Positions 42,401-60,430 of a DNA stretch of 64,000 nucleotides are shown here, in pieces. The DNA comes from Aquibium carbonis. GTDB taxonomy: Bacteria > Pseudomonadota > Alphaproteobacteria > Rhizobiales > Rhizobiaceae. The stretch spans positions 62,001-126,000 of the forward strand of contig NZ_RWKW01000056.1 of the NCBI RefSeq assembly GCF_003970795.1, in the 5' to 3' direction. Position numbers and translations under genes: made by a program. Under the pieces are notes generated by a model. The model was not told where the DNA came from, did not search any database, and saw nothing but the letters and a program-made list of their open reading frames with translations. The first letter of the stretch is position 1. Each line of letters begins with the position of its first letter.

Positions 42401-42813
42401 GTGCTGCGGTCGATCGAGTCGAGAAAGGCCTGAAGCCTGGGCCCCGCCGGGTCCGGCCTGCGATAGACGTCGAGATCGGCGCGGATCTCCTCCGGGTATT
42501 CGAAAGGCCAGTTGGTGGCGCTCTCCTCCACGAAGAAATCGAAGGGGTTGTAGACCGTCATGTCGGCGACGAGGTCGACCTCGATCCGGAACTCCGTCAC
42601 CGGTTCCGGGAAAACGAAGCGGGCGAGCCAGTTGCCATAGGCGTCCTGCTGATGGTTCACGAAGTGCCCGGCGGGCGTGACCTTCAGCGAATGCGAGATG
42701 ACGCGGGTGCGGCTGTGCGGCGCCGGGCGCAGACGGATGATCTGTGGGCCGAGCGTGATGGGATTGTCGTACCGATACGCGGTGAGATGATGGATGGCCG
42801 CCTTGATGGACAT
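39430..42813 (-). CDS. large transglutaminase-like protein with C-terminal DUF2126 domain
   Basis: 1127 residues. The N-terminal transglutaminase part (about 1-290) has C180 ([13 protein letters not shown]), H229 (DLHAWVEVF) and D245 (IGFDPTSG). The rest is the DUF2126 region ([60 protein letters not shown]). The start at 42813 ([19 protein letters not shown]) matches the beta domain of the family and has an AGGGA site; a longer frame reaching 42969 adds non-homologous sequence. First gene of the operon with the ATP-grasp/alpha-E and small transglutaminase genes. Confidence 0.9.
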
Positions 42814-43147
42814 GTTATCCCTGCCGTTGGTCTTGGCGGAGTCGTTCCACATTCCGGTGCGATGCACAATTCGTATTGCCCGCACGGAGCCCGATTCCCC
42901 GATCTTTCGGGTTTTGCCGGCGCATGGTCCCCGTCGGTCGCTGCCGCAGCCACCAGGGCTGCTGCCCACTATGGATCGAACCGCGGCGCGTTGAGCTGAC
43001 GGGACCGGACCCGCTTCGGCCCATGATTGTCATTCTGCGAGGGCCGCTTTGCAAACTGCAATGCCCCCGCGGCGCGTTTTGCGAAATCTGGCCCGGCCTG
43101 CGCCTGAGAGACGTCACGCTCCTTTGATATCATTGAGTTTTTCAGAC

Positions 43148-43163: not shown

Positions 43164-43226
43164 ACCCCTTGGCATGACGGCGCGAGCTTGTGCGCCCGTA
43201 CCGCGAAAGATGAGAGACGATCCAGG

Positions 43227-43568
43227 ATGCAAGCCCAACGAACCATTTGCTGGAAAGGCCACCTCACCATCCGAGAGGGCGCGCGCTCTGCCCGCGACTT
43301 TCTCGAGGCACTGTCCACCGGCACCGAAGTGACTGTGGATACGAGCGAACTTCGATCGGTGGACGTCAGCCACCTTCAGATTCTGGTCGCCGCGCATAAT
43401 TTCGCGCGCTGCCTCGGCAAATCGCTGGCGGTCGTGGCGCCGCCCGGCGGCTCGCTCGACATGGCCATGCGCAGCACCGGCCTCTCCGACCCGCTCGACG
43501 CCCGCCTCGTCCACCATGATGGCGCCTGGGCAGGCATTGCCTTCAACGGGGAAAGGGAAGCGGCATGA
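43227..43568 (+). CDS. STAS-domain protein of the chemotaxis operon
   Basis: 113 residues. The fold pattern CWKGHLTIREGARSARDFLE followed by EVTVDTSELRSVDVSHLQIL matches a STAS (anti-sigma-factor antagonist-like) domain; the usual phospho-acceptor serine is at VDVSHLQ. The frame is open to 43188 but the ATG at 43227 begins at the first strand. Its stop overlaps the CheY start by 4 bases. STAS proteins occur at the head of several alternative chemosensory operons in alphaproteobacteria, where their role is not settled. Confidence 0.82.
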   Translation: MQAQRTICWKGHLTIREGARSARDFLEALSTGTEVTVDTSELRSVDVSHLQILVAAHNFARCLGKSLAVVAPPGGSLDMAMRSTGLSDPLDARLVHHDGAWAGIAFNGEREAA

Positions 43569-43933
43569 GCAAGACGATCCTCACGATCGACGACTCCTCC
43601 TCGGTGCGCCAGATGGTCAGCCTCACGCTCGCCTCGGCGGGCTACGCCGTCATCGAGGCGGTGGACGGAAGCGATGGCTACGACAAGGCCACCACCGCTC
43701 CGGTCGACGCGATCCTCACCGACCTGAACATGCCGGGCATGAACGGTCTCGACTTCGTCCGCAAGTACCGCACGCACCCTTCCAGCCGCGGTGTTCCGAT
43801 CGTGTTCCTGACCACCGAGTCCGACGACGGCTTCAAGCAGCAGGCCAAGGCGGCCGGCGCCACCGGCTGGATCGTCAAGCCATTTCGTCAGGACCAGTTG
43901 CTGGCCGTCGTCAAGAAGGTCGCCGGCGCATGA
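43565..43933 (+). CDS. cheY: CheY-like single-domain response regulator
   Basis: 122 residues, a bare receiver domain. The acidic pocket is D9/D10 (TIDDSSSVRQ), the phospho-acceptor is D53 (LTDLNMPGMNG), the switch threonine lies in VFLTTESDD and the lysine in IVKPFRQDQL. It lies between STAS and CheA genes with 4-base overlaps on both sides and is the likely direct target of this CheA. Output could be a motor or a non-motility process. Confidence 0.93.
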   Translation: MSKTILTIDDSSSVRQMVSLTLASAGYAVIEAVDGSDGYDKATTAPVDAILTDLNMPGMNGLDFVRKYRTHPSSRGVPIVFLTTESDDGFKQQAKAAGATGWIVKPFRQDQLLAVVKKVAGA

Positions 43934-45972
43934 CCATGACGGACGCAAACGAAACCTTCCGCACGGAAGCGGCAGAGCTTCTCGAAACGCTCCAGGCCGG
44001 ACTGATGGAGCTGAAGCAGAGGCCGGCCGATCTCGGGCTGGTCGACAGCGTCTTCCGCGCGCTCCACACCATCAAGGGCTCCGGGGCGATGTTCGGGTAT
44101 ACCGCCGCCGCCACCTTCGTCCACGAATTCGAAACCGTCTTCGACGGGGTTCGCAAAGGCAGGACCCCGGCGAGCCCCGCCCTGATCCGCATCGCGCTTG
44201 GCGCATGCGACCACATTCACGCGCTGATCCAGTCACCTGACGCCAGCACCGCCGGTGGAGAGCCGATCCTCGCCGCGCTGCGCCAAGCGGTCGGCGACGG
44301 CGCCGACGAACCGGTCGATGCTGCCGTTGAACCATCCGCGTCGCATTCCGCTTCGGGCTGGAAGGTACGCTTTCGTCTCCCATCGGATTCGTTGGTCCTT
44401 GGGACCAACCCGGTGCTGCTGCTCGAGGAACTGTCGGCTTTTGGTTCATGCGACGTTCGCGCGCTCCTGGGCGGCGTTCCGGAACTCGGCGCCCTGGACC
44501 CCGAAGCCTCCTACCTCGGATGGGAAGTCACGTTGCGGGCCGACGTGCCACGCGAAAGCATCGAGGACGTCTTCATGTTCCTCTCCATGCCCAGCGAGGA
44601 TCTGGTGATCGCGCCTCTCGATGCAGCCGGACAGGACACGACCGGCAGCCTCGACGACGGTGACGACGAGAACATCGACTCGGTGGGGAACGCCGTCCCC
44701 TCCAAACCACGCGGGGCGGCGACCGGGGCCGGAAGGAGCGATGGCGGGAATGGGGCCAGCCCCGCCCGCTCCTTCCGGATCGACAAGGCGGGCACGTCGT
44801 TGCGCGTGCCCGCCGACCGGCTGGACTCGCTGATGGATCGCGTCGGCGAACTGGTCATCGCCCAGGCACGGCTCAGCCAGCTCGCCTCGACCTCCACGGA
44901 CCAGAACCTGAAATCCGTCGCCGAGGACATGGAGCGGCTGAGCGCCAGCCTGCGCGATACCACGATGGGCATCCGCATGGTGCCGATCGGCTCGCTGTTC
45001 GGACGTTTCCGCCGCCTCGTGCACGACCTCTCACATGATCTCGGCAAGGAGATCGACTTCGTGACGCACGGCGAGGAAACCGAACTCGACAAGACCATGA
45101 TCGAGCAGTTGGCCGACCCCCTGGTGCATCTGATCCGCAATGCCGCGGACCATGGTCTTGAAAGACCCGACGTGCGCCTCGCCAATGGAAAGTCCCCGAC
45201 GGGCACGCTCCGGCTCTCGGCCGTCTATGCCGGGGCGGAAGTCGCCATCTCCATCGCCGACGATGGCGCCGGGCTGGATGCCGAGCGCATCCGGGCCAAG
45301 GCGGCGGAAGCGGGCCTGATCGCCGCCGACCAGCCGATCACGGAACCGGAACTGTTCCAGTTGGTCTTCCATCCAGGCTTCTCGACCGCCAGGGAAGTCA
45401 CCGCGCTGTCGGGCCGGGGCGTCGGCATGGACGTGGTCAAGAAGACCATCGAGGGCCTGCGCGGGAGCATCGAGATCGCCAGCACGCGCGGCCAGGCCAC
45501 GACCGTGACGTTGCGCCTGCCGTTGACGCTGGCCATCATCGACGGCCTGCTCGTGCGCGTCGGCGATGGCCGCTACACGATCCCGCTTGCCGCCGTGGAG
45601 GAGTGCGTCGAACTTCCGCCGGAAGCCGACATCGCCTCGAAGGGCCGCAGCTTCCTCAATGTTCGCGGCGCGCTCGTGCCGTTCCTGCGGCTTCGCGACC
45701 TCTTCGGCACCGACGTACCCGCCGACCTCCATCCCAAGGTGGTGATCGTCTCGTCCGGCGAAACCCGGGTCGGCCTGGTCGTCGACCAGATCATCGGCAA
45801 CAACCAGACCGTCATCAAGCAGCTTTCGACGCTGCATGCCGGCCTGAAGAACTTCTCCGGCGCCACGATCCTCGGCGACGGCTCCGTCGCCCTCATCCTC
45901 GACGTGCTCAACCTCGTCGGATCCGGACAGGACAGCGACGAGAGCGCAAGATCCATCGGGAGGGCAGCATGA
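43930..45972 (+). CDS. cheA: chemotaxis histidine kinase CheA
   Basis: 680 residues. P1 HPt domain with phospho-histidine H46 (ALHTIKGSGAMFGY); a P2-like region about 145-235 (WKVRFRLPSDSLVLGTNP); an acidic/glycine linker; P3 dimerisation (VPADRLDSLMDRVGELVIAQ, about 295-360); P4 kinase with LVHLIRNAADHGLE (N box), DDGAGLD and GRGVGMDVVKK; and P5 CheW-like domain about 540-665. The ATG at 43930 overlaps the CheY stop by 4 bases. All kinase motifs look intact. Confidence 0.95.
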   Translation: MTMTDANETFRTEAAELLETLQAGLMELKQRPADLGLVDSVFRALHTIKGSGAMFGYTAAATFVHEFETVFDGVRKGRTPASPALIRIALGACDHIHALIQSPDASTAGGEPILAALRQAVGDGADEPVDAAVEPSASHSASGWKVRFRLPSDSLVLGTNPVLLLEELSAFGSCDVRALLGGVPELGALDPEASYLGWEVTLRADVPRESIEDVFMFLSMPSEDLVIAPLDAAGQDTTGSLDDGDDENIDSVGNAVPSKPRGAATGAGRSDGGNGASPARSFRIDKAGTSLRVPADRLDSLMDRVGELVIAQARLSQLASTSTDQNLKSVAEDMERLSASLRDTTMGIRMVPIGSLFGRFRRLVHDLSHDLGKEIDFVTHGEETELDKTMIEQLADPLVHLIRNAADHGLERPDVRLANGKSPTGTLRLSAVYAGAEVAISIADDGAGLDAERIRAKAAEAGLIAADQPITEPELFQLVFHPGFSTAREVTALSGRGVGMDVVKKTIEGLRGSIEIASTRGQATTVTLRLPLTLAIIDGLLVRVGDGRYTIPLAAVEECVELPPEADIASKGRSFLNVRGALVPFLRLRDLFGTDVPADLHPKVVIVSSGETRVGLVVDQIIGNNQTVIKQLSTLHAGLKNFSGATILGDGSVALILDVLNLVGSGQDSDESARSIGRAA

Positions 45973-46436
45973 ACGCCACAGCCACGACACGCACGGCCAT
46001 GCGCGCTCTCACGATGCGGCTCGACGACGAGATTTTGGCCATCGAAGCCGAAAGCGTCCGTGAGATCCTCGAAGTGGTGCCGATCACCCGCGTTCCGAAT
46101 GCACCGGAAGCCGTCTTCGGCCTCATCAACGTGCGCGGCAGCGTCGTGCCGCTCTGCGATTTCCGGGTCCTCTTCAAGATGGATCGTCGGGACCCGACCG
46201 AAGACACCCGCATCGTCGTCGTCGACGTTCAGCTGAACGGCGAACGCCTCGTCGCCGGGCTGCTCGCCGACAAGGTGCACGAAGTCGTCGACCTCGACGA
46301 CTCGGCGCGTGAGCCCGTCCCGCGCGTCGGCATGCGCTGGCCGCCGGACTTCATTCGCGGCATCAACCGGCACAACGATGCCTTCGTCATCATCCCCAAC
46401 GTCGAGACAATTTTCGCAACTCTCGCCGCGGCCTGA
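45969..46436 (+). CDS. cheW: CheW coupling protein (first copy)
   Basis: 155 residues. CheW fold: [44 protein letters not shown], then [30 protein letters not shown]. The ATG at 45969 overlaps the CheA stop by 4 bases. It would bridge CheA P5 and the tip of the MCP encoded next. The operon has a second CheW after the MCP. Confidence 0.93.
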
Positions 46437-46462: not shown

Positions 46463-48196
46463 ATGTCAAAGACCGAGACCAAGAAGCGTGGCGCACTGAA
46501 GTCGATCGCCGCAAAGATCATCCTCATTCAGTCCGTTTCCTTCCTGGCGATCGCCGCGGTCGGCAGCGCCGGGTACTACGGCCTCAACGAGATGCACGAC
46601 AAGATCGTAACGATCTATGTCGACCGCGTCTTGCCCATGCAACAGCTCAAGGACATGTCGGATTCCTACGGCATCACGATCCCGACCGGAGCGGTGAACC
46701 TGAAGAACCGGGCTGCGGATTGGGGATCAGTCCAGGCCACCATCGCCGACGCCCGGGCGCTGATCAAGAAGGACTGGGATGCCTATCTGCAGACCTTACT
46801 TACCGAAAACGAAAGCGTGATCGTCGAGCGTCTGAAGCCGCATCTCGCGACAGCCGATGCGGCGATCGACAAGCTCGACCGCATCATCGTGGCGCGCGAC
46901 GCCGTCGCTCTCGAGGCGTTCATAGCCAACGATCTCTATCCGGCCGTGGAACCGGCATTGAGGGAAATCGTCGAGCTGAGCGCCTATCAGAACCAGACGG
47001 TCGAACGGCTGATGGGCATGTCGGAGGATCTCTTCAAGATGCTCTCCACGCTGATGATCGCGCTCGGCATCGGCTCCACCCTGGCAGCGCTCGGCCTCTC
47101 CGCATTCTTCACCCGCAGCGTCAGGCGCAACCTGGGCTCCGCCGTCACGCTCGCCAATGCCGTGGCCGCGGGCAATCTGGCCGCCAGGGCGGACGTTCGT
47201 TCGAACGACGAGATCCGCGATCTGGTCGATGCGCTGAACGAGATGACTGCCAAGCTGCGTTCTGTCGTCGGCGAGGTCACCACGGCCGCCCGCAACGTCT
47301 CCTCCGGCTCCGAAGAGATGTCGGCAACGGCCGAACAGCTTTCGCAGGGCGCAACCGAACAGGCGTCGTCGACCGAGGAAGCATCCTCCTCGATGGAAGA
47401 GATGGCGTCCACGATCAAGCAGAGCGCCGACAATGCTTCGCAGACGGAGAGGATCGCCCGCCAGTCCGCCGCCGATGCACTGGCCAGCGGCGAAGCCGTC
47501 AGCAAGGCCGTGGATGCGATGCAGACCATCGCCACCAAGATCATGGTCGTGCAGGAGATTGCGCGCCAGACCGACCTGCTGGCTCTCAATGCGGCCGTCG
47601 AAGCGGCCAGGGCCGGCGAACATGGCCGCGGCTTCGCGGTGGTGGCGTCGGAGGTGCGCAAGCTGGCCGAGCGCAGCCAGGCAGCAGCCGCCGAGATTTC
47701 CACCCTGTCAGGCGACACGGTCAAGGCGGCGCAGTCGGCCGGCGAAATGCTGAACCGTCTGGTGCCGGACATCCAGCGCACCGCCCAGCTCGTCGAGGAG
47801 ATTTCGGCCGCGACGCGTGAACAGAATGCCGGCGCATCGCAGATCAACGCCGCGATCCAGCAGCTCGACAAGGTGACGCAGCAGAACACCGCCGCGGCCG
47901 AAGAGATGGCGGCCACCTCGGAGGAACTGGCGAGCCAGGCCGAGCAGCTTCAGTCATCGATCGCCTATTTCCGGATCGACGAGGCCAACGCAGCGAAGCA
48001 GGCCGATCGGCCCGTCACCAAGCCGGCGTCCATGCCGCGGACGGCCTCCACCGAAGACCGCGACCTGCGGGAGGCGATTGCCGCACGCGCGCCGCATCTG
48101 GCATCCCGACGCCAGCAGAAGGGCGGGTTCAATCTGGAGCTCGACGCGGGCGGCGATGCCCTCGATGCCGAGTTCACTCGCCGCAACGCTGCCTGA
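46463..48196 (+). CDS. methyl-accepting chemotaxis protein
   Basis: 577 residues. Transmembrane helices at about 20-42 and 195-217 enclose a periplasmic four-helix-bundle-type sensor of about 150 residues. A HAMP domain (about 215-270) is followed by a signalling domain with canonical tip [20 protein letters not shown] (about 368-387) and [16 protein letters not shown]. No CheR-tethering pentapeptide is visible at the C-terminus (it ends RRNAA). This is the only canonical membrane receptor in the operon; the stimulus is unknown. Confidence 0.94.
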
Positions 48197-48210: not shown

Positions 48211-48684
48211 ATGTCCGGAACATCCCAGTTCGTCACTCTCGGCGCGGCGGAGGAAATCTATGCCGCGCCCGTGGAAAAGGTCCAGGAGATCCTGGAATTG
48301 AGGCCGATATCACGGTTGCCCAACGCGCCCTCCAATCTGCTCGGCATGATCGACGTGCGCAGCGAAGGCATTCCCGTGCTCGACCTTCGCGCCACGCTCG
48401 GCCTGCCCCTGTCTAGGGATGACGAGAACACCCGCATCGTCGTGTTGCGGTTCAAGGCCGACGGCCGAGATCTGACGCTGGCGCTGAAGACCGACAGGGT
48501 CTTCGAGGTGACCGTGCTCGACGACGATACGCTCTCCCCGCCGCCGCCGACCGGGCGACGCTGGGACAGCCGCGTCATCGCGGGCATAGGACGGCGCAAC
48601 GGCGCCTTCGTCACGGTGCTCGATCTCGACCGCCTGCTTTCGTTCGCGGACGTCGATGGTCAGGGCGCGCCACTCGCCAACTGA
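48211..48684 (+). CDS. cheW: CheW coupling protein (second copy)
   Basis: 157 residues. It begins FVTLGAAEEIYAAPVEKVQEILELRPISRLPNAPSNLLGMIDVRSEGIPVLDLR, the CheW core, and ends with a VIAGIGRRNGAFVTVLDLDRLL strand. It lies 14 bases after the MCP gene. It diverges clearly from the first CheW, so the two may couple different partners, for example the membrane MCP and the soluble MCP-like protein at 50761-52458. Confidence 0.92.
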   Translation: MSGTSQFVTLGAAEEIYAAPVEKVQEILELRPISRLPNAPSNLLGMIDVRSEGIPVLDLRATLGLPLSRDDENTRIVVLRFKADGRDLTLALKTDRVFEVTVLDDDTLSPPPPTGRRWDSRVIAGIGRRNGAFVTVLDLDRLLSFADVDGQGAPLAN

Positions 48685-48725: not shown

Positions 48726-49607
48726 ATGATGCTTGCACGAAAGCAAATGCCCGAGATCGAAACGGGCACCGCGCAAAGCCTGTCGGACAAGGAGTTCGAG
48801 CGGCTGGCTACCTTCATCGGCGACAAGGTCGGCATCAGGCTGCCGCCCACGAAACGGCTGATGGTGGAAGGTCGCCTGCGCAAGCGCCTGCGCGCTCTGA
48901 ACATTCCCGACATGCAGACCTATTGTCGGCTGGTGATCGAGACCCACACGCTGGATGCGGAAGTGACGCATCTGATCGACGTCATCACGACCAACAAGAC
49001 GGACTTCTTCCGGGAGGTCGAGCACTTCGACCTGATGCGAAGCCGGCTGGTGCCGGCGCTGCTCGCCGAACGGGCGAAGGAACGCATGCCGCTCCTGAAG
49101 ATCTGGAGCGCTGCCGCATCGACCGGCGCCGAAGCTTACACCGCGGCCATGGTCCTGCACGACATGACCACGAAGCGGAACACGTTCCGCTTCGCCATTC
49201 TTGGCACCGACATCTCCACGGCGGTGCTCGAACAGGCGCGGTCGGGCATCTACCCCGCCGACATGATGGCGCCGGTTCCGAAGGACCTGCGCGCCCGCTA
49301 CGTCATGGAGCCGGTCCGCAAGACCCTTCGTCCGGATGTGAGGATCGTTCCGGAACTGCGCCGTCTCGCCTCGTTCGAGCGGCTCAACCTGATGGACGAG
49401 ACTTATCCCTTTGACCGGGACGTCGACATCATCCTGGTGAGGAACGTGCTGATCTACTTCGAGAAGGAAGACCAGAGTGCCGTCGTGAAGCGCCTGGTCG
49501 GGCATCTGCGGCCGCGCGGCTACATCCTGCTCGGCCATTCGGAGTCGATGGTGGGCAACATGCCCGGCCTGGCGCAGGTCGCGCCCGCCGTATTCCAGAA
49601 AATCTGA
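48726..49607 (+). CDS. cheR: CheR protein-glutamate methyltransferase
   Basis: 293 residues. N-terminal helical domain ([33 protein letters not shown]), then the SAM-binding domain with [32 protein letters not shown] (the usual GCSTGEEPYS loop is here [12 protein letters not shown]), [17 protein letters not shown] and [14 protein letters not shown]. It methylates receptor glutamates to set adaptation. Two adjacent ATGs (48726, 48729) are possible starts. Confidence 0.94.
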
Positions 49608-49615
49608 GGCCAACC

Positions 49616-50764
49616 ATGCGTGACGGCATTTCCGGGACAAGCCGCGTCAGCGACAGGATCCGCGTCCTGATCGTCGACGATTCCGCGTCCGTGCGCCAGG
49701 CTCTGAGCGACATCATCAACGCCGATCCGGACCTGGAAGTGATGGCGACCGCGGCCGATCCCTATATCGCGGCGGAGCGTATCCGGGCGGAAGTGCCCGA
49801 CGTCATCTTCCTCGACATCGAGTTGCCGCGCATGGATGGACTGACTTTCCTGCGCAAGATCATGTCGCAACGTCCGCTGCCGGTCGTCGTCTGTTCCAGC
49901 CTCGCCCAGGAGGGGTCGGAGGCCTTCATGCAGGCGCTCGAGGCAGGCGCCGTCGAAGTGGTGATGAAGCCGCGGATGGACGCGGCCAATTATCTGCACG
50001 AATCGCGCATGCGCATTTGCGATGCCGCCAAGGCAGCCGCCCATGCGCGGCTTCGCAGTATCCGCAGGCCAGCGCCGACCCTGACGGTCGAACCCAAACT
50101 CAAGGCAGACGCGATCATTCCGCCGCTCTCGGCTGGACGGCTGGCCGCCCTCCGCGCCACGCTGCCCCAGACAGACCCGATCATCTGCATCGGCGCGTCC
50201 ACGGGCGGAACCGAAGCGCTGCGGACCGTGCTGGAAGGCCTCCCCGCCTCTTGCCCGCCGGTGTTGATCGTCCAGCACATGCCCGAAAAGTTCACCGGCA
50301 CCTTCGCCCGCCGGCTGAACGCGCTCTGCCAGCCAGAGGTGAAGGAAGCCGAGCAGGGCGACTCCGTGATCCGCGGTCGCGCCCTGATTGCGCCAGGCAA
50401 CCGGCACATGCTCCTGCGCCGGACCGGGCGCCGCTACGTGGTCGACATCGTGGAAGGGCCTCACGTCTCGCGCCACCGTCCCTCGGTCGACGTGCTGTTC
50501 CGGTCCACTGCCCATAACGCCGGAGCAAACGCCCTTGGCGTCATCCTCACCGGCATGGGCGATGACGGCGCCGCCGGCCTGCTCGAAATGCGCGCCATGG
50601 GCAGTTTCACGATCGCGCAGGACGAGGACAGCTGCATCGTCTACGGCATGCCGAAGGAAGCGGTGGATCGCGGGGCCGTTTCGACGGTATTGCCGCTCGA
50701 TGCAATTGCCACCGAGATCATCAAGCGGACGCGCGACCGCGAAGCCCTGAAGGTCGTCCGATGA
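49616..50764 (+). CDS. cheB: CheB protein-glutamate methylesterase/response regulator
   Basis: 382 residues. Receiver domain with D67 ([12 protein letters not shown]) and C-terminal methylesterase with catalytic S195 ([10 protein letters not shown]), H221 ([14 protein letters not shown]) and D317 (TGMGDDGA). It removes receptor methyl groups when phosphorylated by CheA. It overlaps the next gene by 4 bases, tying the soluble MCP-like protein to the core chemotaxis set. Confidence 0.95.
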
Positions 50765-52458
50765 CCGCGCGCGCAAGTTCCGTCGAACCGGCCTTCGCGA
50801 CGGTTCTGAGCGACCTCGCCGAAAAGCGCGCGTCGATCGACGCTGCCGTGTCGAGCGCTGGAAACCGGCTCATGCGGTGCGTCGGCGACATGAACCGGAA
50901 CTCGGCGCTGTTCGAGGCGCTGCCGCGCGAGATCCGAAGCGTCGAGATGGATCAGGCCTGCCGCGACATCTCGTCGATCGGCGACCGGGCCCAGGAGATC
51001 ACCTCCGCCTTCGGACGCGAGCGCGAGACGATGGACGAGCTTTGGCGCGCCCTTGCCGCATCGGTCTCGCCGATCGCGGACCTGCAGCGCAGCGTCAAGA
51101 TGATCGGTATCCTGTCGGTAAATGCCCGCGTCGTCGCAGCCGAGCTCGGCCAGGTCGAGGGTTTCGAGGTTTTCACCGTCGACATCGATCGCCTGTCTCG
51201 CGAAGCCGGAGTGACGGTCAGCCGTTTCTCCGACCTGTTCGGCCGGCTGCGTGGCGACCTGCGGGCGGTCATCGAGAAGCGCCAGACCTTCGAGACTGCT
51301 CATTCCGCCACGCTGACCGGCCTTGGGGACAAGCTGGCCATGCATCTGGAACGGGTCGAGGACCGGCGACGGTCGGCCGCCGACATGGGGCAGCGCACGG
51401 GCGAGACGGTCCGGCAGATTTCGGCCCGCATCGGTTCGGTCGTGCTGTCGCTGCAGTCGGGCGACCGCATGCGTCAGCGCATCGAACACGTCGAACAAGC
51501 TCTCTCAGCCGGACACTCGGCGGGGATGGACCCCGGTCATGCGACGGGCCTGCCCGGCAGGCACGTCCTGGCGATCGCCGGTCTCCAGGCCGACCAGCTC
51601 CAGGCTGCCGTCGACGAGTACGACGCGGAGATGGCTTCGGCCGAGGACGCGCTTGCAGGTCTTGCCCGCGACGCCCTCGACATGGTCCGTTCGGCGGCAG
51701 CGCTGACGGGCAAGTCGAAGGGCGCTCAAGACGGTCCCATCGCGGCGCTCGCGAAGGAGTTGCATCAGGCGATCTCCCTGCTTCGGCGCTGCGCGACCGA
51801 GCGGACGCATCTCGATGCCCTTGCGGAAAGGATGGCGAGCGCCGTCGCCGAACTCCTCGCCCATGTCGAGGTCGTGCAGAACGTCGAGGCGGAGATGCGC
51901 ATCCTGAGCCTCAACGCGACCGTGAAATGCGCCCAGCTCGGCAGCCGGGGTCGTGCACTCAACGTCGTCGCCCAGCAGTTGCGCGACCTGACGATGGAAA
52001 CCGTGGCCTCGGCCGAGGCGGCCGTGGAGGCGCTGCGCGCCTGTGCGGGCGTGACGGCCCGGATCCGGGCCGACGCGAGCGGCGATCTTGCGCGCGAGAT
52101 CGTGGGGATCGAAGCCGCCGCGCAATCGGCCGTCGAACGGATCGCCGGCATCGAGCAACGAACCAGCGAAGCAGTCCAGACACTGGAGACGGAAGGACCC
52201 GACATGGCAAGAACCCTCAAAGAAGCTGCGGCCGACATCAAGGCCGGCCGCGTATGCGCTGCGGAACTCGCCGACCAGGCGAACCGTCTTGCCAGCCCGG
52301 ACGACGATCACGTGCCGATGGAGGGCGATGAACTCGTCGCTGCCTTGCTCGAGACGCTGGACCTGCTTCGCAAGGGCTACACGATGGAAGACGAGCGTCG
52401 CATTCACGACGCCTTCACGGCGAGGGTCGCCGAGAAGCGGGCAGGCATGGACAGGTGA
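50761..52458 (+). CDS. soluble MCP-like coiled-coil protein with two degenerate receptor-tip motifs
   Basis: 565 residues, no signal peptide or transmembrane helix, mostly alpha-helical and rich in Ala, Glu and Arg. Two segments look like the hairpin tip of an MCP signalling domain: about 113-149 ([18 protein letters not shown], then [14 protein letters not shown]) and about 378-415 ([18 protein letters not shown], then [11 protein letters not shown]). Both follow the pattern LxLNAxVxAAxxG...FxVVAxxxRxL of the canonical tip. The start overlaps the CheB stop by 4 bases. It could be a cytoplasmic receptor, a scaffold, or a decoy that binds CheW or CheA. No known family name is claimed. Confidence 0.75.
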
Positions 52459-52572: not shown

Positions 52573-54039
52573 ATGCAGTTTCAGGCTGCGGGCGACAAAG
52601 ACGTGTCCAAGGAACGGCGACCGAGCGTCCTCGTGGTCGAGGACACGCCCTCGCTGTCGGCCACCTACCGCGCCATCCTCGAGAAGCAGAACTTCGCCGT
52701 GGAAACCGCGGCGACCGGTGCCGAGGCGCTTGAACGACTGGCACACGGCGCCTTCGATGCGCTCGTACTCGACGTGCGGCTGCCGGACATGACCGGGCTC
52801 GACGTGCTCGATGCGTTGCGCGAACGCGGCGACGAAACGGAAGCGGTGGTCATCACCGCCGACGGGTCCATCAATCTCGCCGTCGATGCCATGCGCCGGG
52901 GTGCCTTCGACTTCATCGTCAAGCCGCTCAACGCGCATCGGCTCGCGGTTACCGTCTCCAATGCCACGGAGCGGGCCCGACTGAAGGCCGAGGTCTCCAC
53001 CCTCAGGCGCGAACTCGGTGACGAATCCGGCTTCTGCCAGTTCATCGGCCGTTCCGCGGCGATGCAGACCGTCTACCGCATCATCCGCAACGCTGGTCCG
53101 TCGAACGCCACGGTGTTCGTCCTCGGCGAGAGCGGCACCGGCAAGGAACTGTGCGCGGATGCGGTGCACCGCTCATCGAAGCGCGCGTCCGGGCCGTTCG
53201 TGACGCTGAACTGCGCAGCCATTCCCAAGGATTTGCTCGAAAGCGAGATTTTCGGGCACGTCCGCGGCGCGTTCTCCGGCGCCACCGCCGACCGCAAGGG
53301 CGCCGCCCTGTCGGCCGACGGCGGCACGCTGTTCCTCGACGAGATCTGCGAGATGGACATCGCCCTCCAGTCCAAGCTCTTGCGTTTCCTGCAGAACAAG
53401 GAGGTGCAGCGTCTCGGGGAAGACAAGGTCCAGCGCTGCGACGTGCGCATCGTCTGCGCGTCCAACCGCGACCCGCTGGCCGAGGTTCAAGCGGGGCGCT
53501 TTCGCGAAGACCTCTACTATCGCCTGCACGTGATCCCGATCGAGCTGCCGCCGCTCCGCGAGCGTGGTGAGGATATCGTCGAACTGGCGGAATGGTTCCT
53601 CGCCCGCTTCTCCAGGGAAGAAGGCAAGGCGTTCAATGCCTTGTCGGCCGATGCTCTGGCGGCGATGCGGCACCACTCCTGGCCGGGCAACGTGCGGCAG
53701 CTGGAAAACCTGATGCGCCGGCTGGTCGTGCTGAACGACGGCCACACGATCGAGCTCCACATGCTGCCGGCCGACATCCGGGCTTCTGCGGCCACGGCCA
53801 CGCCCGGCGTCCATGGTCCCGCCGCGGATGCACGCCGTCCTTTGGCCTCGACGCCATCGCTGGCCGCCGCCGTTGACGCACCACCGGTCGTCGGGCCGCT
53901 CGAAGCGACCATCCGCGAAGCGATCGAACGCGCGATCACGGCCAGCGGCGGGTCGATTCCCAAGGCAGCACAGATGCTGGACGTCAGCCCCTCGACGCTC
54001 TACCGCCGCATCGAGGCGTGGGAGAGCGCGGCGCAGTAG
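52573..54039 (+). CDS. NtrC-family sigma-54-dependent response regulator
   Basis: 488 residues. Receiver domain (about 17-130) with phospho-acceptor D67 (LVLDVRLPDM). AAA+ domain with Walker A GESGTGKE (185-192), the sigma-54 contact loop GAFSGA (232-237, a T-to-S change from GAFTGA), Walker B GGTLFLDEI (250-258) and YYRLHVIPIELPPLRER. A Fis-type helix-turn-helix at the end (SIPKAAQMLDVSPSTLYRR). GGGGAAGACAG precedes the ATG. No partner histidine kinase gene is nearby, so CheA of this operon is the obvious candidate phosphodonor, and the sigma-54 promoter at 43148 the obvious target. Confidence 0.93.
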   Translation: MQFQAAGDKDVSKERRPSVLVVEDTPSLSATYRAILEKQNFAVETAATGAEALERLAHGAFDALVLDVRLPDMTGLDVLDALRERGDETEAVVITADGSINLAVDAMRRGAFDFIVKPLNAHRLAVTVSNATERARLKAEVSTLRRELGDESGFCQFIGRSAAMQTVYRIIRNAGPSNATVFVLGESGTGKELCADAVHRSSKRASGPFVTLNCAAIPKDLLESEIFGHVRGAFSGATADRKGAALSADGGTLFLDEICEMDIALQSKLLRFLQNKEVQRLGEDKVQRCDVRIVCASNRDPLAEVQAGRFREDLYYRLHVIPIELPPLRERGEDIVELAEWFLARFSREEGKAFNALSADALAAMRHHSWPGNVRQLENLMRRLVVLNDGHTIELHMLPADIRASAATATPGVHGPAADARRPLASTPSLAAAVDAPPVVGPLEATIREAIERAITASGGSIPKAAQMLDVSPSTLYRRIEAWESAAQ

Positions 54040-54044
54040 CGCCC

Positions 54045-54428
54045 TCAGAGCCCGCTCTCCGCCATCATCGACACATGCGCGGCCGCCACCTTCCAGCCGT
54101 CGGCGGTGCGCACCCAGCTCTGCATCTGCCGTCCGACCTCGCCCGGGAAATCGTCGCGGTGGAAGAGGGTCGACGCGATGGCGAAGTCCTTGCCGTAGGT
54201 GGTGATGACGGTGCGCGACAGCGTCCGTTCGAAAGGGGCCTGCGCCTTGCGGAAGGCGCGGATCTCCTCGAAACCGTGCTGCACCTCGGCCACGCCGTAG
54301 CGGATCGTCTGGTCCGACGGCAGGAACATCGCCTCAAGCGTGGCATTGTCGTTGGCCAGCAACGCCGTCTCGTAGGCCTCGAAGATGGCGGTCGCCTCAG
54401 CCAGCGTGTGCGGATCGTTGACGATCAT
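54045..54428 (-). CDS. AtzH-like (DUF3225, SnoaL-fold) protein
   Basis: 127 residues. FEAYETALLANDNATLEAMF, RYGVAEVQHGFEEIRAFR and the closing WVRTADGWKVAAAHVSMMAE match the AtzH/DUF3225 family of the NTF2-like fold. Relatives lie in cyanuric acid and biuret gene clusters, where AtzH has been linked to processing of carboxylated urea intermediates. It is the last gene of a three-gene minus-strand unit, 3 bases after the cyclo-ligase-like gene, and is convergent with the NtrC-family gene. Confidence 0.82.
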   Translation of the reverse strand: MIVNDPHTLAEATAIFEAYETALLANDNATLEAMFLPSDQTIRYGVAEVQHGFEEIRAFRKAQAPFERTLSRTVITTYGKDFAIASTLFHRDDFPGEVGRQMQSWVRTADGWKVAAAHVSMMAESGL

Positions 54429-54431
54429 CCC

Positions 54432-55205
54432 TCAGCCTTCCTGCCGGCGCGCCAGCATCCGGTCGCGCAGCCGCCCGAGAAACGGGATCGTGTCGAACTG
54501 GTCGGGCCTGACCATCTCCCAGGTCACGCCGGCCGGGCGCGGCATGTCGTTGCGCGTCTCGATCAGCTCGGCCTCGGTGGCGATGAAGTCGAGCGGGCTG
54601 TCATGCGGCTCGATCACCACGACGTCGTCCGGTACCAGCTGCAGCGAATGAACCGTGGTGGCGATTGGCGTCGCATCGCCGACCATGCCGAGTTCGCGAA
54701 AGATGCCGGTCTCGAGGTCGGCGAAGCCGGCGCCCTTGCCGGTGCGCCCTCCCCCGCGTCCGACGGCCACCGAGCCGACCACGCAGAAGTCGAGCGGCTC
54801 GACATCCTCGAACTCGATGCGCTCGCCATGCTGCATGAAGCCTTGCGCGGTCGCCGCGAGTTCGAACGAGACGCCGTCGGCCAGGAGCCGCTTGGGGTCC
54901 AGCCTCAGATAGGGGAAGTCGTGCGTCAGGTAGGGCACGGGCGTATAGACCGTCTTGCCCTCGTAGAGCGCGCGGATGCGGATCGGGATCTGCGGATGGT
55001 CGGGATTGGTCTTCACCGTGCGCGCCGCCTTCCACGCATCGGTCTGCGAAAGCCGCCAGGCGGCGATGTCGGCGCCGACGAAGTTCGGGATCATGCTCCA
55101 GGCGGGTCCGACGGCGACGCCGTGCTCTTCAAGCACGCGCCAGACGTCGTGGCGCACGATGTCCTTGGCCGTGTTGCGCCCGGCCCAGCGTCCCTGCTCA
55201 GCCAT
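54432..55205 (-). CDS. 5-formyltetrahydrofolate cyclo-ligase-like protein
   Basis: 257 residues. The glycine-rich loop [17 protein letters not shown] and the ATP/folate-contact segments ([33 protein letters not shown]) match the MTHFS/5-FTHF cyclo-ligase family, closest in style to the longer MTHFSD-type members. [20 protein letters not shown] supplies the N-terminal part. It overlaps the BiuH-like gene by 8 bases. A folate role is possible, but position between a ureide hydrolase and an AtzH-like gene suggests an ATP-dependent step on a ureide instead. Function unproven. Confidence 0.8.
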
Positions 55206-55878
55206 GCACCAGCTCCCGCGCGAAGGCCGTTTCGAGGTCCTGGAGCCTGGCGGCCCAGCCGACGATGCCGCCTTGCGCGACGATCATCTCGATCGCCGAC
55301 GCCTTGAACTCGGGAAAGTAGCTCTCCGTCGCCTCCTCGATCAGCAGGCATTCGTAGCCGCGATCATTGGCCTCGCGCATCGATGTCTGGACGCAGACTT
55401 CGGTCGTGACGCCTGCAAAGACGAGCTGCGTGATGCCCTTCGCCGACAGCGTTTCATGCAGGTCGGTGGCCCAGAACATGCCCTTGCCGGGCTTGTCGAT
55501 CACCATTTCGCCGGGCAGCGGCGCAAGCTCCGGGACGATCTGGTTGCCCGGCTCGCCGGCGATCAGAATGCGGCCCATCGCGCCCTCGTCGCCGATCCTC
55601 AGCCCCGGAGTGCCACGCAGCCGCTTCGCGGGCGGGCAGTCGGAGAGATCGGGCCTGTGCGCCTCGCGCGTGTGCAGAACCGGCAGCTTCTGACCGCGAA
55701 ACAGCGACAGCAGCGCCGCCACCGAGGGAATGATCGCGGTCAGTCGCGACACGTCGTTGCCGAGCACGGCGCCGAAGCCGCCCGGTTCGATGAAGTCGCG
55801 CTGCATGTCGATCACGACCAGCGCAACGTGCGCCGGGTCGAGGCTGAATGCGTAGGGGCGGGCGGAGACGGTGATCAC
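55198..55878 (-). CDS. BiuH-like isochorismatase-family cysteine hydrolase (diverged copy)
   Basis: 226 residues. Catalytic triad D24 (VVIDMQRDF), K129 ([10 protein letters not shown]) and C162 ([18 protein letters not shown]), with Q202 in AQGGIVG at the place of the substrate-contact Gln of biuret hydrolase. It starts with GTG at 55878, spaced 10 bases from AAGGAG. The frame runs on to 55956 but that part is repeat sequence. The C-terminal [19 protein letters not shown] differs from the BiuH-like copy at 57643, so its substrate may be a related but different amide. Confidence 0.85.
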
Positions 55879-55928
55879 GTGCGATACTCTCCTTGATGGC
55901 TGTGAATTGCAGCTGTCGCGGATGAGAG

Positions 55929-56070
55929 TACCCCCACCCCTGACCCCACCCCACAAGGGGGAGGGGGAGCGAGATGCGACATCGCCGACCGAAAGGTCTC
56001 GTCGGTTCGGTCGAACCGTGGGCTGCTGTGTCCCCCTCCCCCTTGTGGGGAGGGGTCAGGGGTGGGGGTA
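55929..56070. repeat. 142-bp foldback (inverted-repeat) element
   Basis: Two 40-base arms, 55929-55968 and 56031-56070, are reverse complements with one mismatch. Each carries the C/G-rich core CCCCACAAGGGGGAGGGGG or its complement. A second inner stem (CGACCGAA near 55986, TTCGGTCG near 56006) extends the foldback. Short palindromic elements of this base composition are spread through intergenic regions of many Rhizobiales genomes. It sits between the ABC ATPase gene and the diverged BiuH-like gene, and fills most of the 214-base gap 55879-56092. It may end or attenuate the upstream transcript. Confidence 0.85.
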
Positions 56071-56092
56071 AAGGCCGCGCGCAAACCCATCC

Positions 56093-57646
56093 TCAGTGCC
56101 CCGCCATGTGCTGGCCGATGGTGTTGCGGTCTGTCTCGCCGATTGGCGACACGTAGCTGATCGTGCCGCCCGACATCACCGCCACCCGGTCGGAAAGTTC
56201 GAGGATCTCGTCGAGGTCCTCCGAGACCAGAAGCACCGCCGCGCCCCGGTTTCGCTGTTCCATGATCTGGCTGCGGATCTCCGCCACGGAGGCGAAGTCG
56301 AGCCCGAAGCAGGGGTTGGCGACGATCAGCACGTCCACTTCACCGGAGAGCTCGCGCGCCAGCACTGCACGCTGGACGTTTCCGCCCGACAAGGCCTCGA
56401 TCGGCGAGTCGGGCGAGGTGGTCTTCACCCGATAGCGGCTGATCAACTCCTCCGCCTTGCGCCGCATCGGCCCCGGCGACAGCCACCAGCCGAGGCTCGT
56501 CATCGGCGGCTTGTCGAAGGCGCGGAATGCCATGTTCTCGGCCACGCTCATGCGCGGCACCGTGGCGTTTTTCAACGGCTCTTCGGGAAGACCGAACACC
56601 TTGAACCGGTCGAAGTCCGACCGCTTCGGCTCGAAGGCCTTGCCGTGGATGAAGATACCGCCGTCAGAGAGCGGCCGCTGGCCGGCCAGCGCCTCCACCA
56701 GTGCGCTCTGGCCGTTGCCCGAAACCCCGGCGATGCCGACGATCTCGCCCGATCGGATCTTCAGATTGACCCGGTCGATCGCCAGCCGCCCTTCCTCGTC
56801 CTCGGCACAGAGGCCGGCGAGTTCGAGCACGGCGGCGCGATCATTGTGCATGACCCGCTCAGCCCGCTCGCGCACCTCCGTGTCGCCGATCATCATGCTG
56901 CTCATTTCGGCGACGGTAGCCGTGCGCGCATCGCCCGAGCCGGTCAGTCGGCCACGCCGCAGCACGGTGAAGGAATCGCAAAAAGCCTTCACCTCCCGGA
57001 ACTTGTGGGAGATCATCAGGACGGTGATTTCGCCCCGCGCGGCCATCTCGCCGAGCAGGCCCAGAACCTCGTCGGCCTCGCCCGGCGTCAGCACCGAGGT
57101 CGGCTCGTCGAGGATCAGGAAGCGCTGGTCGAGATAGAGCAGCTTCAGGATCTCGAGCTTCTGCTTCTCGCCCGCCGACAACGTCGACACCTGCCTGTCG
57201 AGCGGCACCTGGAAGGGCATGCGCGCCATGAAGGCTTCGAGCTTCGGCATCTCGGCCTTCCAGTCGATGATCGTGGGCGCATCGGCCCGCGAGATGACGA
57301 GGTTTTCGGCCGCCGTCAGGCAGGGCACCAGCGTGAAGTGCTGGTAGACCATCCCGATGCCGAGATCGCGCGCGTCGCGCGGGCTCTTCACGTCGACCTC
57401 TCGGCCGTCGAGCAGCACCGCACCTCGGTCGGCGGCGTAGAAGCCCATGATGCATTTCACCAGCGTCGACTTGCCTGCGCCATTCTCGCCGAGCAGCGCG
57501 TGGAACGAGCCGGCCTCGACCCTGATCGACACGCCGTCCAGCGCCACCAGCGGCCCGAAGATCTTGGTCATGCCCGCCGTCTCCAGCGACGGCGCGCGTT
57601 TCGCGGTCGGCGCGGTCGCCGTGTCGGCGATCATCTGGGCGCTCAT
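56093..57646 (-). CDS. ABC transporter ATP-binding protein, BMP/nucleoside-importer type (two ATPase domains)
   Basis: 517 residues, RbsA/YufO-like double ATPase. First domain [27 protein letters not shown] (the HFTLVP form is characteristic of the BMP group), [18 protein letters not shown] and [16 protein letters not shown]. Second domain GVSGNGQS and [17 protein letters not shown]. The ATG at 57646 follows GGAGG and overlaps the BiuH-like stop by 4 bases. It energises the two permeases at 58376-60402. Confidence 0.92.
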
Positions 57647-58365
57647 GGCAGCGCCTCCAGGAAGGTCGCCGAGGTCGCCACCGCGCCGAACACGCCGCCC
57701 TGCATCTTGATCATGTCGATCGCCGCGAGATGGTTCTCGACCTTGGTCGCCGCGCAGCAATCCTCGAGCAGCAGGCACTCGTAGCCGCGGTCGTTGGCGT
57801 CGCGCATGGTGGTGTGGACGCACACGTCGGTGGTCACGCCGGCGAACACGATGTTGCGGATGCGCCGCGTCTGGAGCACGAGGTCGAAGTCGGTGGCGAG
57901 GAACGTTCCCTTGCCCGGCTTGTCGATGATCGCCTCGCCGGGTTCGGGCTGCAATTCGGGGATGATCTCCCAGCCCGGCTCGCCGCGCACCAGGATTCGG
58001 CCGCACGGTCCCTGGTCGCCGATGCCCGCACCGATGCGCTGCGAGCGCCAGCGCTTGTTGGCCGGCAGGTCGGAGAGATCCGGCTTGTGGCCCTCTCTGG
58101 TATGAATGACGAAGTAGCCCTTGGCCCGCATCGCCGCCAGCACGGTCTGGATCGGCCCGATCGGCTTGCGCGTCAGGGAAATGTCGTAACCCATTGAATC
58201 GACGTATCCTCCCGGTGCACAGAAGTCCGTCTGCATGTCGATGACGACGAGCGCGGTGTTATGCGGCCCGATGTCACCGTCGTACGGCCAGGGATAGGGA
58301 TCGGACGCCACCGTCACGGCGCCCGGCACGCGGGCATTCTCGACGCGTTCATCGACAAGGCTCAT
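57643..58365 (-). CDS. biuH: biuret hydrolase (BiuH-like cysteine hydrolase)
   Basis: 240 residues. D43 ([15 protein letters not shown]), K149 ([10 protein letters not shown]), C182 ([19 protein letters not shown]) and Q222 ([10 protein letters not shown]) match the catalytic Asp-Lys-Cys and contact Gln of Rhizobium BiuH as I recall them, at a constant offset of seven. [20 protein letters not shown] and [19 protein letters not shown] are also BiuH-like. It would hydrolyse biuret to allophanate and ammonia. The gene lies between a permease (10 bases) and the ATPase (4-base overlap), so uptake and hydrolysis are one operon with the allophanate hydrolase gene. Confidence 0.88.
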
Positions 58366-58375
58366 GGTCTGGTCC

Positions 58376-59296
58376 TCACTTGACGATCGACAGTTCGCCG
58401 GGCGCTTCGCGCGCCGCGCCCTTGGAGCGGGCCGAGGCGATCATGATGAAAAGGGTCAGGATGTAGGGGGCGGCGTTGAAGAAGTAGTAGCCCTGGCTGA
58501 TGCCGATCGACTGCAGCGAAGGGCCGATGGCGCCGGCCGCCCCGAACAGAAGCGCGGCGAAGACGCAGCGCACCGGATCCCAGCGCGCGAAAATGACCAG
58601 TGCGACCGCCATCAACCCCTGGCCCGACGACAGCCCCTCGTTCCAGCTGCCGGGATAGAAGAGCGACAGGAACGCCCCACCGACGCCGGCCAGAAACCCG
58701 CCTGCCGCGGTCGCGAGCAGTCGCACGAGGTCGACCGAAACGCCCATGGCCTTGGCAGAGGCTGCGCTGTCGCCGGTCATCCGCAGGATCAGGCCCCAGC
58801 GCATGTTGCGGAAGGCCCACCACAGGAACACCGCGAGCGCGATGCCGACGAAAAACAGGGGATTGACCTGGAGCGCCTGGGCGACGGAGGAATTTCCCGT
58901 CCAGTCACCGAGCGGAATGGCTTCCAGACGCGGCGCCGAAGGCTGGATGTAGGGCTTGCCGAAGAAGAAGGCGAGGCCAGTGCCGAAGCTCATGAAGGCG
59001 ATACCGACAGCAATGTCGTTCACACGGGGCAGCTTGCAGATCCAGCCGTGCATGGCGCCCAGAACGAGGCCCGCGCAGCCGGCCATCAGGACGCCGAGCC
59101 ATGGGCTGCCGGTGGTGTAGGAGCCGGCATAAGCGACCATGGCGCCGAGCACGAGATTGCCCTCGTGACCGAGGTTGATGCGGCCAGACTTCTCGGTCAG
59201 GCATTCGCCGAGCGCCACGAACATGAAGGGCGTGGAAACGCGGATCGCGCCGCCCACCATGGCGATCATCACGATGAAGAGATCGGCGCCCGTCAT
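58376..59296 (-). CDS. ABC transporter permease, BMP/nucleoside type (second permease)
   Basis: 306-residue membrane protein with about nine hydrophobic segments. [36 protein letters not shown] is the family hallmark, and [21 protein letters not shown] the ATPase-contact loop. The start at 59296 overlaps the first permease stop by 4 bases. It pairs with the permease at 59293-60402. Confidence 0.92.
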
Positions 59297-60402
59297 GTCC
59301 GGTCTCCCGTCGTCTTGGCTTGCAGGAAGGGGATGCGGCCGTAGAAGGTCTCGGACACCAGCAGCACCACGAAGATGATGCCCTGGAGCACCAGCACGGT
59401 CGCATCGGGCATGCCCATGCGCCGCTGGATCAGCCCACCCGATGCCGCGAGCGCGCCGAACATGATGGCGACGGGCACGACCGAGAGCGGGTTCTGGCGG
59501 GCCAGGAAGGCGACGAGGATGCCTGTGAAGCCGTAGCCGGCCACCAGCGAGGCATTGGCCTGGCCGTGCACGGCGGCAACCTCGTAGAAACCGGCGAGCC
59601 CGGCGCAGGCGCCCGCAATCGCACAACAGGCGACGACCAGGAAGCCGACCGGCAGCCCTTGCGCCTTGGCGGCTCGAACGTTGCCGCCGGTCATACGCGC
59701 GGCGAAGCCGAAGGTGGTGCGCGTCATCAGGATCCACAGCACCACGGCGAGGAGGAGCCCTGCCGCAAGCCCCCAGTGAACCGAGGTGCCGGGCATGGAG
59801 CCGACGCGATAGGCGTCGCCGATCGGCATGGTCGATGGCTTGTTGGCGGACGCGGGGTCGCGCAGCAGGCCTTCGACGAAGAAGTTCATGATGGCGACGG
59901 CGATGTAGGACAGGAGCAAGGACGAGATCGTTTCGTTGACGCCGCGATAGTGGCGGAGCCAGCCGGCGAACCCGATCCACGTCGCGCCAACGAGCATCGC
60001 CGACAGCGCCATGATCGGCAGCGTGAGAAATGGAGCAATTCCGCCGGTGACGAGCGGAATGGCGACGGCTGCGGCCGTGAAGCCGCCGAGCACCAGCGCG
60101 CCCTCCGCCCCGATCAGCGTCAGGCCGATGCGCGCCGGAATGGCGAAGGCAAGCCCGGTCAGGATCAGCGGCGCGCTGCGCTGCAAGGTGTTCTGGATGG
60201 AGAACGATGACCCGAACCCGCCTGTCCAGATCAGGCTGAAGAAGGTCGCCGGCGACTTGCCGAGCGCGATCAGAAAGACGGAGAAGAGCAGAGCGGAGGC
60301 GACCAGCGCGCCGATCGGGATGACCAGCGCCTCGACGACGCGCGCGGATTTCGGGCCGAGGCTGAAGGATCGCATGGCGGGTGGGGAGACGACGGCGGTC
60401 AT
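59293..60402 (-). CDS. ABC transporter permease, BMP/nucleoside type (first permease)
   Basis: 369 residues with about ten hydrophobic segments. APLILTGLAFAIPARIGLTLIGAEGALVLGG and RHYRGVNETISSLLLSYIAV are typical of YufP/NupP-type permeases of nucleoside importers. GGNVRAAKAQGLPVGF is the ATPase-contact loop. It follows the binding-protein gene after a 63-base gap with a hairpin. Confidence 0.92.
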   Translation of the reverse strand: MTAVVSPPAMRSFSLGPKSARVVEALVIPIGALVASALLFSVFLIALGKSPATFFSLIWTGGFGSSFSIQNTLQRSAPLILTGLAFAIPARIGLTLIGAEGALVLGGFTAAAVAIPLVTGGIAPFLTLPIMALSAMLVGATWIGFAGWLRHYRGVNETISSLLLSYIAVAIMNFFVEGLLRDPASANKPSTMPIGDAYRVGSMPGTSVHWGLAAGLLLAVVLWILMTRTTFGFAARMTGGNVRAAKAQGLPVGFLVVACCAIAGACAGLAGFYEVAAVHGQANASLVAGYGFTGILVAFLARQNPLSVVPVAIMFGALAASGGLIQRRMGMPDATVLVLQGIIFVVLLVSETFYGRIPFLQAKTTGDRT

Positions 60403-60430
60403 GGCTCACTCCGTGCTCGATACGAAAGTT

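Follow-up and report, generated by a model that had tools for sequence, protein, structure and literature searches.

Soluble chemoreceptors contain the MCPsignal domain but no membrane part, and those of T. maritima (3g67 and 3g6b) form long antiparallel helical hairpins with a tip. In the phosphatase CheZ (PF04344), the D-xxx-Q motif is catalytic; as described in the available parts of the sources, the glutamine positions a water molecule and the acidic residue forms a salt bridge with a lysine of the receiver (PMC3035606, PMC7750401), and an AXXFQ motif precedes the active site (PMC7750401). Several rhizobial chemotaxis systems are without CheZ, according to the accessible text of one report (PMC8429497). 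In Sinorhizobium meliloti, CheT, which also carries a D-xxx-Q motif, is reported to enhance the dephosphorylation of one CheY and to have no significant homology to known chemotaxis proteins (PMC12654446). Could such a site also reside in a receptor-like protein?

Here, we analyze a stretch of 64,000 nt from Aquibium carbonis (the window), and in particular the product, termed X, of the ORF at 50761..52458 on the + strand, which has an ATG start and encodes a protein of 565 aa that is predicted to be soluble and to consist of tandem MCP hairpins. Like the soluble chemoreceptors, X appears to form long antiparallel helical hairpins with a tip, and the TM-score between 3g67_B and its first half is 0.65/0.78. 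Unlike them, it has two hairpins per chain, degenerate tips, a match below the Pfam cut-off and no methylation motif, while a D-xxx-Q site and a C-terminal motif are added. With CheZ it shares the D-xxx-Q, similar neighbours (A....D.T.QR in the family), a matching helix face and a helical hairpin, and many of its relatives share the C-terminal acidic-hydrophobic peptide as well. However, X has no match to PF04344, does not keep AXXFQ and has tandem hairpins with tips, and the protein of the window is without a CheZ-like tail. It also differs in size from E. coli CheZ (565 aa vs. 214) and from S. meliloti CheT, which is small. By description only, CheT resembles X as a rhizobial che-cluster protein with D-xxx-Q, whereas the available text describes no tandem MCP hairpins for it (PMC12654446).

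Gene X is the last of an operon in the order STAS-cheY-cheA-cheW-mcp-cheW-cheR-cheB-X, whose other eight products were named by Pfam. That is, a STAS-domain protein (43188..43568; STAS_2, E 6.7e-11) is followed, also on the + strand, by cheY (43565..43933; a single receiver domain, Response_reg, E 9.2e-26), cheA (43930..45972; Hpt, H-kinase_dim, HATPase_c and CheW), the first copy of cheW (45969..46436; CheW, E 5.1e-31), a membrane MCP (46463..48196; 4HB_MCP_1, HAMP and MCPsignal), the second copy of cheW (48211..48684; CheW, E 7.4e-31), cheR (48726..49607; CheR, E 4.3e-55) and cheB (49616..50764; CheB_methylest, E 4.2e-67, and a receiver). Rhizobial clusters with an extra cheW are assigned to class F8 in the accessible text of PMC8429497, and we infer that the operon of the window belongs to this class.

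The first-pass annotation of this DNA had described X as a protein with neither a membrane nor a HAMP region, and this description holds. No HAMP match was found in X by Pfam, and its maximum 19-residue hydropathy is 1.27, compared with 2.17 for the MCP of the same operon. In the X family, values above 1.6 occur in 29/92 members (maximum 1.89), compared with 108/110 MCPs. Based on these hydropathy figures, X is clearly predicted to be soluble, and all of its relatives are likely to be so.

A scan of 84,980 species (one genome each), in which loci were selected by the pattern [SA][LM]Q[ISV]GDx[TMI]RQ, yielded 483 stretches related to X, and the best 80 of them are referred to as L061-L140. These 80 come mostly from Alphaproteobacteria (Devosia, Aquibium, Mesorhizobium, Bradyrhizobium, Azospirillum, sphingomonads and others). 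Litchfieldella and a MAG labelled Stygiobacter lie outside this group, and the closest named relative among them is that of Aquibium sp. ELW1220, with 75% identity. When 61 related genomes were searched with the whole protein, 14 of them yielded 16 full-length homologues; all but the second copy of G004 were aligned, which gives 15 sequences. Among 297 genomes sampled from the order, a profile search found X in 28, namely the window and 27 others. After two overlaps were removed, these 15 and 27 members formed a motif-unselected set of 40 unique sequences. Note that L073 entered the 92-row alignment with its last 600 residues only, and was left out of the 80- and 68-sequence alignments. A second copy of X is present in the genus mates G002 and G004 (loci L030 and L127); L127 has its own che cluster and its X ends in DVFF, and L030 is without such a tail. 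Among plasmids, 14 records matched, and the four with annotation call the protein a hypothetical protein, a chemotaxis protein or a type VII secretion target; therefore, X has probably been overlooked or mis-filed. In our literature search, no title or abstract start describing such a tandem-hairpin protein was found.

Other che genes are located nearby in 78 of the best 80 loci, and cheB lies directly upstream on the same strand in 65. In the window, the start of X and the stop of cheB overlap by 4 bp (ATGA, 50761..50764, + strand), from which it had earlier been concluded that X is part of the chemotaxis system. The overlap is real but proves little alone, and its occurrence in 60 of the 65 loci with cheB directly upstream is a biased count, since the start codon nearest the cheB stop was chosen. 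It is the gene neighbourhood, with cheB directly upstream in 65/80 loci, that supports the membership of X in the che system.

Several genes around the operon are also worth recording. A sigma-54 response regulator (52573-54039, + strand), with receiver, AAA+ and Fis-type HTH domains, comes after X both in the window and in the Aquibium locus L061; elsewhere among the other 79 loci, it directly follows X only in L115, with a weak match (32 bits), and it could be either an insertion or an output specific to the lineage. The region 54045-60409 on the - strand encodes an AtzH-like protein, a hydrolase-like ORF and two isochorismatase-like ORFs (hydrolase and isochorismatase assigned by reading) near ABC-transporter-like genes, and may be a small cluster for the catabolism of ureide or triazine-type compounds. 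On the other side, a long ORF (39430-42969, - strand) is of transglutaminase type by eye, plus a second C-terminal region.

The protein can be divided into two halves. Half A (residues 1-262; 50761..51546, + strand) is an MCP-like helical hairpin with arms at about 8-129 and 135-253, and tip 1 (residues 113-149; 51097..51207, + strand) is marked by a helix break at 130-134 (DSSP) and by the hhalign alignment to the MCP profile. Half B (residues 263-515; 51547..52305, + strand) is a second MCP-like hairpin, and its tip 2 (residues 378-415; 51892..52005, + strand), the better preserved one, is indicated by Pfam MCPsignal, hhalign and 3g6b. X has no Pfam domain above cut-off. MCPsignal matches residues 347-493 with E 2e-5, the 24.9 bits being below the curated cut-off of 34.6, and tip 1 lies outside this match. 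In the 80-member alignment of the X family, 52 members match MCPsignal (Pfam, E<=0.01), and chemoreceptors are the best among the PDB sequence matches listed for X (3g6b, E 1e-4).

Family profiles were then compared by hhalign, each comparison being controlled by 120 column or heptad-phase shuffles; the MCP profile was built from 60 MCPs of related operons, out of 90 passing the filter. The profile of half A aligned with MCP signalling domains tip on tip with a score of 35.3 (E 2.4e-4), and that of half B did so with 65.6 (E 3.5e-9). The two halves aligned with each other over 184 columns, again tip on tip, with a score of 48.9 (E 1.9e-6), where the reversed control reached 29.1. In all three comparisons, 0/120 shuffles scored as high. 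X is therefore an internally duplicated MCP hairpin, and both tips are real, mutually homologous and degenerate. The two stretches that had been read as degenerate MCP tips are thus recovered by the family profiles, and in the comparison with the MCPsignal family that had been proposed for each half, Pfam itself detects only tip 2, below its cut-off.

Tip 2 keeps the N, G-x-x-G, V and R of MCPs in most members of the X family. Tip 1 is looser, and most of the MCP tip residues are lost there. At position +4 of tip 2, however, the glutamate of MCPs is replaced by K/R in 79/92 members, and at position +5 alanine is replaced by C in 88/92. The MCP tip glutamate at +4 has a role in tip contacts. 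The K/R at this position argues against an ordinary array contact, and ordinary trimer-of-dimers contacts appear unlikely; X may dock on CheW/CheA by means of tip 2. Methylation-site motifs number 0 in X, and are found in 11/92 members of the X family and in 110/110 MCPs.

The AlphaFold model of the whole chain, based on the 80-member alignment, has a pLDDT of 90.5 and a pTM of 0.73 and consists entirely of helices, with a break at 130-134 that corresponds to tip 1. DSSP calls helix 326-439 continuous, with no break at tip 2; the chain probably turns there, as 3g6b, which is a hairpin, aligns to residues 283-500 of the model (212 residues, rmsd 4.0 A, VIA). Half A modelled alone, on an alignment of 68 sequences (that of the window plus 67 from the 80 loci), has a pLDDT of 90.7 and again breaks at 130-134. 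By Foldseek, 14/14 chains matching half A at E<=0.001 (nine PDB entries) are chemoreceptors, and VIA aligns 255 residues of half A with the E. coli receptor in entry 8c5v (3.0 A, Z 12.5). However, an unrelated Smc coiled coil ranks first for half A by VIA (Z 12.6), and the top rows for the whole chain are unrelated long helical proteins with Z up to 15.0; consequently, Z alone was not used as evidence. CheZ (1kmi) is absent among the Foldseek and VIA matches listed (50 each), which neither supports nor excludes a relation. The earlier proposal of two hairpins in one soluble chain is therefore supported by the predicted structures, and the structural check that could have refuted it comes out in favour of hairpins. 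The two hairpins may pack as a pseudo-dimer.

The best conserved stretch of X is LQxGDxxRQRxEH, which is located at the base of half A. It lies within the putative CheZ-like active site (residues 230-243; 51448..51489, + strand), where D235 and Q239 align with the D-xxx-Q of CheZ. Among the 15 aligned homologues, Q232, D235, R238, Q239, R240, E242 and H243 are invariant, as are L19, G34, L37, F138, N385 and R408. The D..Q pair is kept in 15/15 whole-protein homologues and in 27/27 loci of the profile search, that is, in 40/40 motif-unselected sequences, noting that both searches used queries containing the motif. Its invariance in L061-L140 is circular and was not counted, because the scan pattern contained the motif.

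For comparison with CheZ, 25 usable sequences from 30 loci were combined with that of E. coli into a set of 26. When the whole X family was compared with CheZ by hhalign, the alignment was of no use (E 0.012, over half B). With half A, in a local and unconstrained comparison, the best alignment falls at the site, with the two D residues paired and likewise the two Q residues, and covers 46 columns with GDxTRQRIEH over QDxTGQRIxK. The score is 26.6, and 0/120 shuffles are as high (best 20.2), but the hhalign probability is only 7%, E is 0.005 for a single comparison, and the signal is confined to the 46 columns. The profiles of half B and of MCPs align to CheZ elsewhere, with 1/120 and 3/120 shuffles as high, respectively. 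In an hmmsearch with the CheZ profile, the catalytic columns lie within the best domain for 52/92 X sequences and for 0 of the 80 MCPs that gave a domain (110 searched). Over the whole CheZ profile, MCPs score above X (median best domain 10.2 vs. 1.9), the higher scores coming through generic coiled coil. When the D and Q residues were excluded from the calculation of the helical hydrophobic moment, their angles to the hydrophobic face were 111 and 173 degrees for X and 101 and 159 degrees for CheZ, and the D143/Q147 pair of E. coli CheZ was confirmed as the D-xxx-Q counterpart. The equivalents of D235 and Q239 in half B are R497 and A501 in the window, and mostly S/A/G and E in the family; therefore, only half A carries the D-xxx-Q. 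None of the sequences in the 80-member alignment matches Pfam CheZ (PF04344) at E<=0.01, and X of the window has no match to it at E<=1, nor to a CheC or CheX domain at the same threshold. Beside the site, AXXFQ is not kept, the window having SLQSG and the family mostly ALQ[IV]G.

Near the C-terminus, YTMxxERxIH is almost invariant in the X family (residues 540-549 in the window; 52378..52407, + strand), with Y540, T541, M542, E545 and R546 invariant in 15/15 homologues, and no library match covers it in X of the window. Many relatives end in an acidic-hydrophobic peptide, such as DDLFADALF, LDDIFF or DLDALMF. We scored C-termini with a CheZ-tail profile made from 25 tails, one of which (L034) was cut at the wrong place and left in, and took as threshold the 99th percentile of the scores of 3117 other ORFs (six frames, at least 150 aa). 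By this measure, a CheZ-like tail is present in 29/40 motif-unselected members, the other 11 being below threshold, and in 51/80 motif-selected ones. It is absent from X of the window (score -9.4), L002, L003 and L030, which are all far below threshold. A displacement of the tail by frameshift was considered, and inspection by eye of all three frames that follow X showed no tail in the window, L061 or L062. The MCPs of these operons are also acidic-tailed, and 17 MCP ORFs pass the same threshold; therefore, a tail of this kind does not point to CheY binding exclusively. Many membrane MCPs in the L061-L140 operons end in a peptide of the GGFDLDLDDGxDDLDGEFSRRGAA type, which could be a docking tail.

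The D-xxx-Q site, together with the tail of the relatives, favours a phosphatase over a protein whose role is purely structural. In this respect the first-pass annotation was incomplete: its two MCP-like hairpins in a soluble chain stand, whereas the CheZ-like D-xxx-Q and the tail of the relatives had been overlooked.

The genomic context was also considered. No CheZ, CheC or CheX match was found in the genome of the window, so the phosphatase role is vacant there. Among the 297 genomes, CheZ is present in 13 of the 28 that bear X, compared with 177 overall, and 120 have no CheZ match. Since X and CheZ occur together in 13/28 genomes, X is not simply a replacement of CheZ everywhere. Mutual exclusion of the two, based on 0/14 among the X-bearing genomes of the 61 relatives, was dropped for the same count. 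The possibility that the genome of the window is without flagella was rejected, because FlhA and four flagellin matches are present; FliM (PF02154) was not found, and a second cheA is located on a different contig, with a flagellin match about 3 kb away. In genome G041, FlhA is located about 15 kb beyond X on the same contig, which suggests that the che system of X serves flagella there.

Based on the above, we give about an even chance to X being a receptor-derived, single-chain CheZ-like phosphatase of the receivers of the operon, most likely of CheY-P, and possibly docked on the array. On this view, the intrachain duplication of an MCP signalling hairpin has produced a soluble helical bundle whose arms are about 120 residues long and which would be pseudo-dimeric. 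The D-xxx-Q of half A, at the base of the descending helix, would insert into the active site of CheY and position a water molecule for hydrolysis of the phosphoaspartate, as D143/Q147 do in CheZ. Half B, which has lost the site and kept the better receptor tip, may dock the enzyme on the CheW/CheA array, and the acidic-hydrophobic peptide of many relatives may tether CheY like the C-terminal helix of CheZ. X of the window has no such tether, and therefore may act only on CheY-P near the array or on CheB-P, or may be decaying. X is filed neither as a CheZ, in view of Pfam, AXXFQ and the tail, nor as an ordinary MCP, in view of its score and the methylation motifs. More tentatively, and as a claim that may well not hold, X could found a class of response-regulator phosphatases born inside the chemoreceptor fold, with one half catalytic, the other docking on the array, and signal termination built into the receptor lattice.

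The MCP-like nature of both halves would also agree with X being a non-catalytic, receptor-like array member or regulator, whose tips bind CheW or CheA P5 and stabilise, cross-link or dilute the array, LQxGDxxRQRxEH being a dimer or partner contact. The first-pass annotation had likewise suggested that X could cross-link CheW-CheA rings or compete with the membrane receptor. The residues kept by tip 2 in most members, the conservation of X near cheB and the two cheW genes of the operon speak in its favour. We nevertheless regard it as rather unlikely, since most MCP tip residues are missing from tip 1, the +4 glutamate of tip 2 has become K/R in 79/92, and the methylation motif is absent from X and rare in the family, in contrast to all 110 MCPs. 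It also leaves unexplained the CheZ-like tail and why conservation is strongest at the D-xxx-Q, about 100 residues from tip 1.

That the tail is absent in the window, L002, L003 and L030 while the D-xxx-Q is kept could instead indicate a scaffold or buffer of CheY-P or CheB-P, in which the D-xxx-Q face and the tail bring receivers to CheB/CheR or to the array with no hydrolysis. Such a pseudo-phosphatase, most plausible in the tail-less lineage of the window, would fit the presence of CheZ in 13/28 X-bearing genomes, and CheT is described, in the available text, as binding CheR besides acting on CheY (PMC12654446). A pure binder, however, is not expected to keep both catalytic-type residues in 40/40 sequences, and we judge this explanation improbable. 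It is very improbable that X, with H243 as phospho-acceptor, transfers phosphate between CheA and the receivers or serves as a phosphate sink between them. This residue is invariant in 15/15 homologues and in 92/92 aligned sequences, outside the selecting pattern, and it sits on a helix as the phospho-accepting histidines of Hpt domains do, but X has no Hpt or HisKA match in Pfam at E<=1, and the flanks of H243 presumably have no Hpt features.

The preferred reading, that of a CheZ-like phosphatase with a receptor-derived body, bears on the rhizobial systems without CheZ, in which the switch-off of CheY-P is only partly understood and for which X is a direct candidate for this step. X is widespread and operon-encoded, and would place a CheZ-like site in a receptor-like body. 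If a phosphatase class has indeed arisen from the chemoreceptor fold, a receptor-type hairpin could also be the ancestor of CheZ, which is likewise built of helical hairpins, as a dimer, and shows the same D-xxx-Q geometry.
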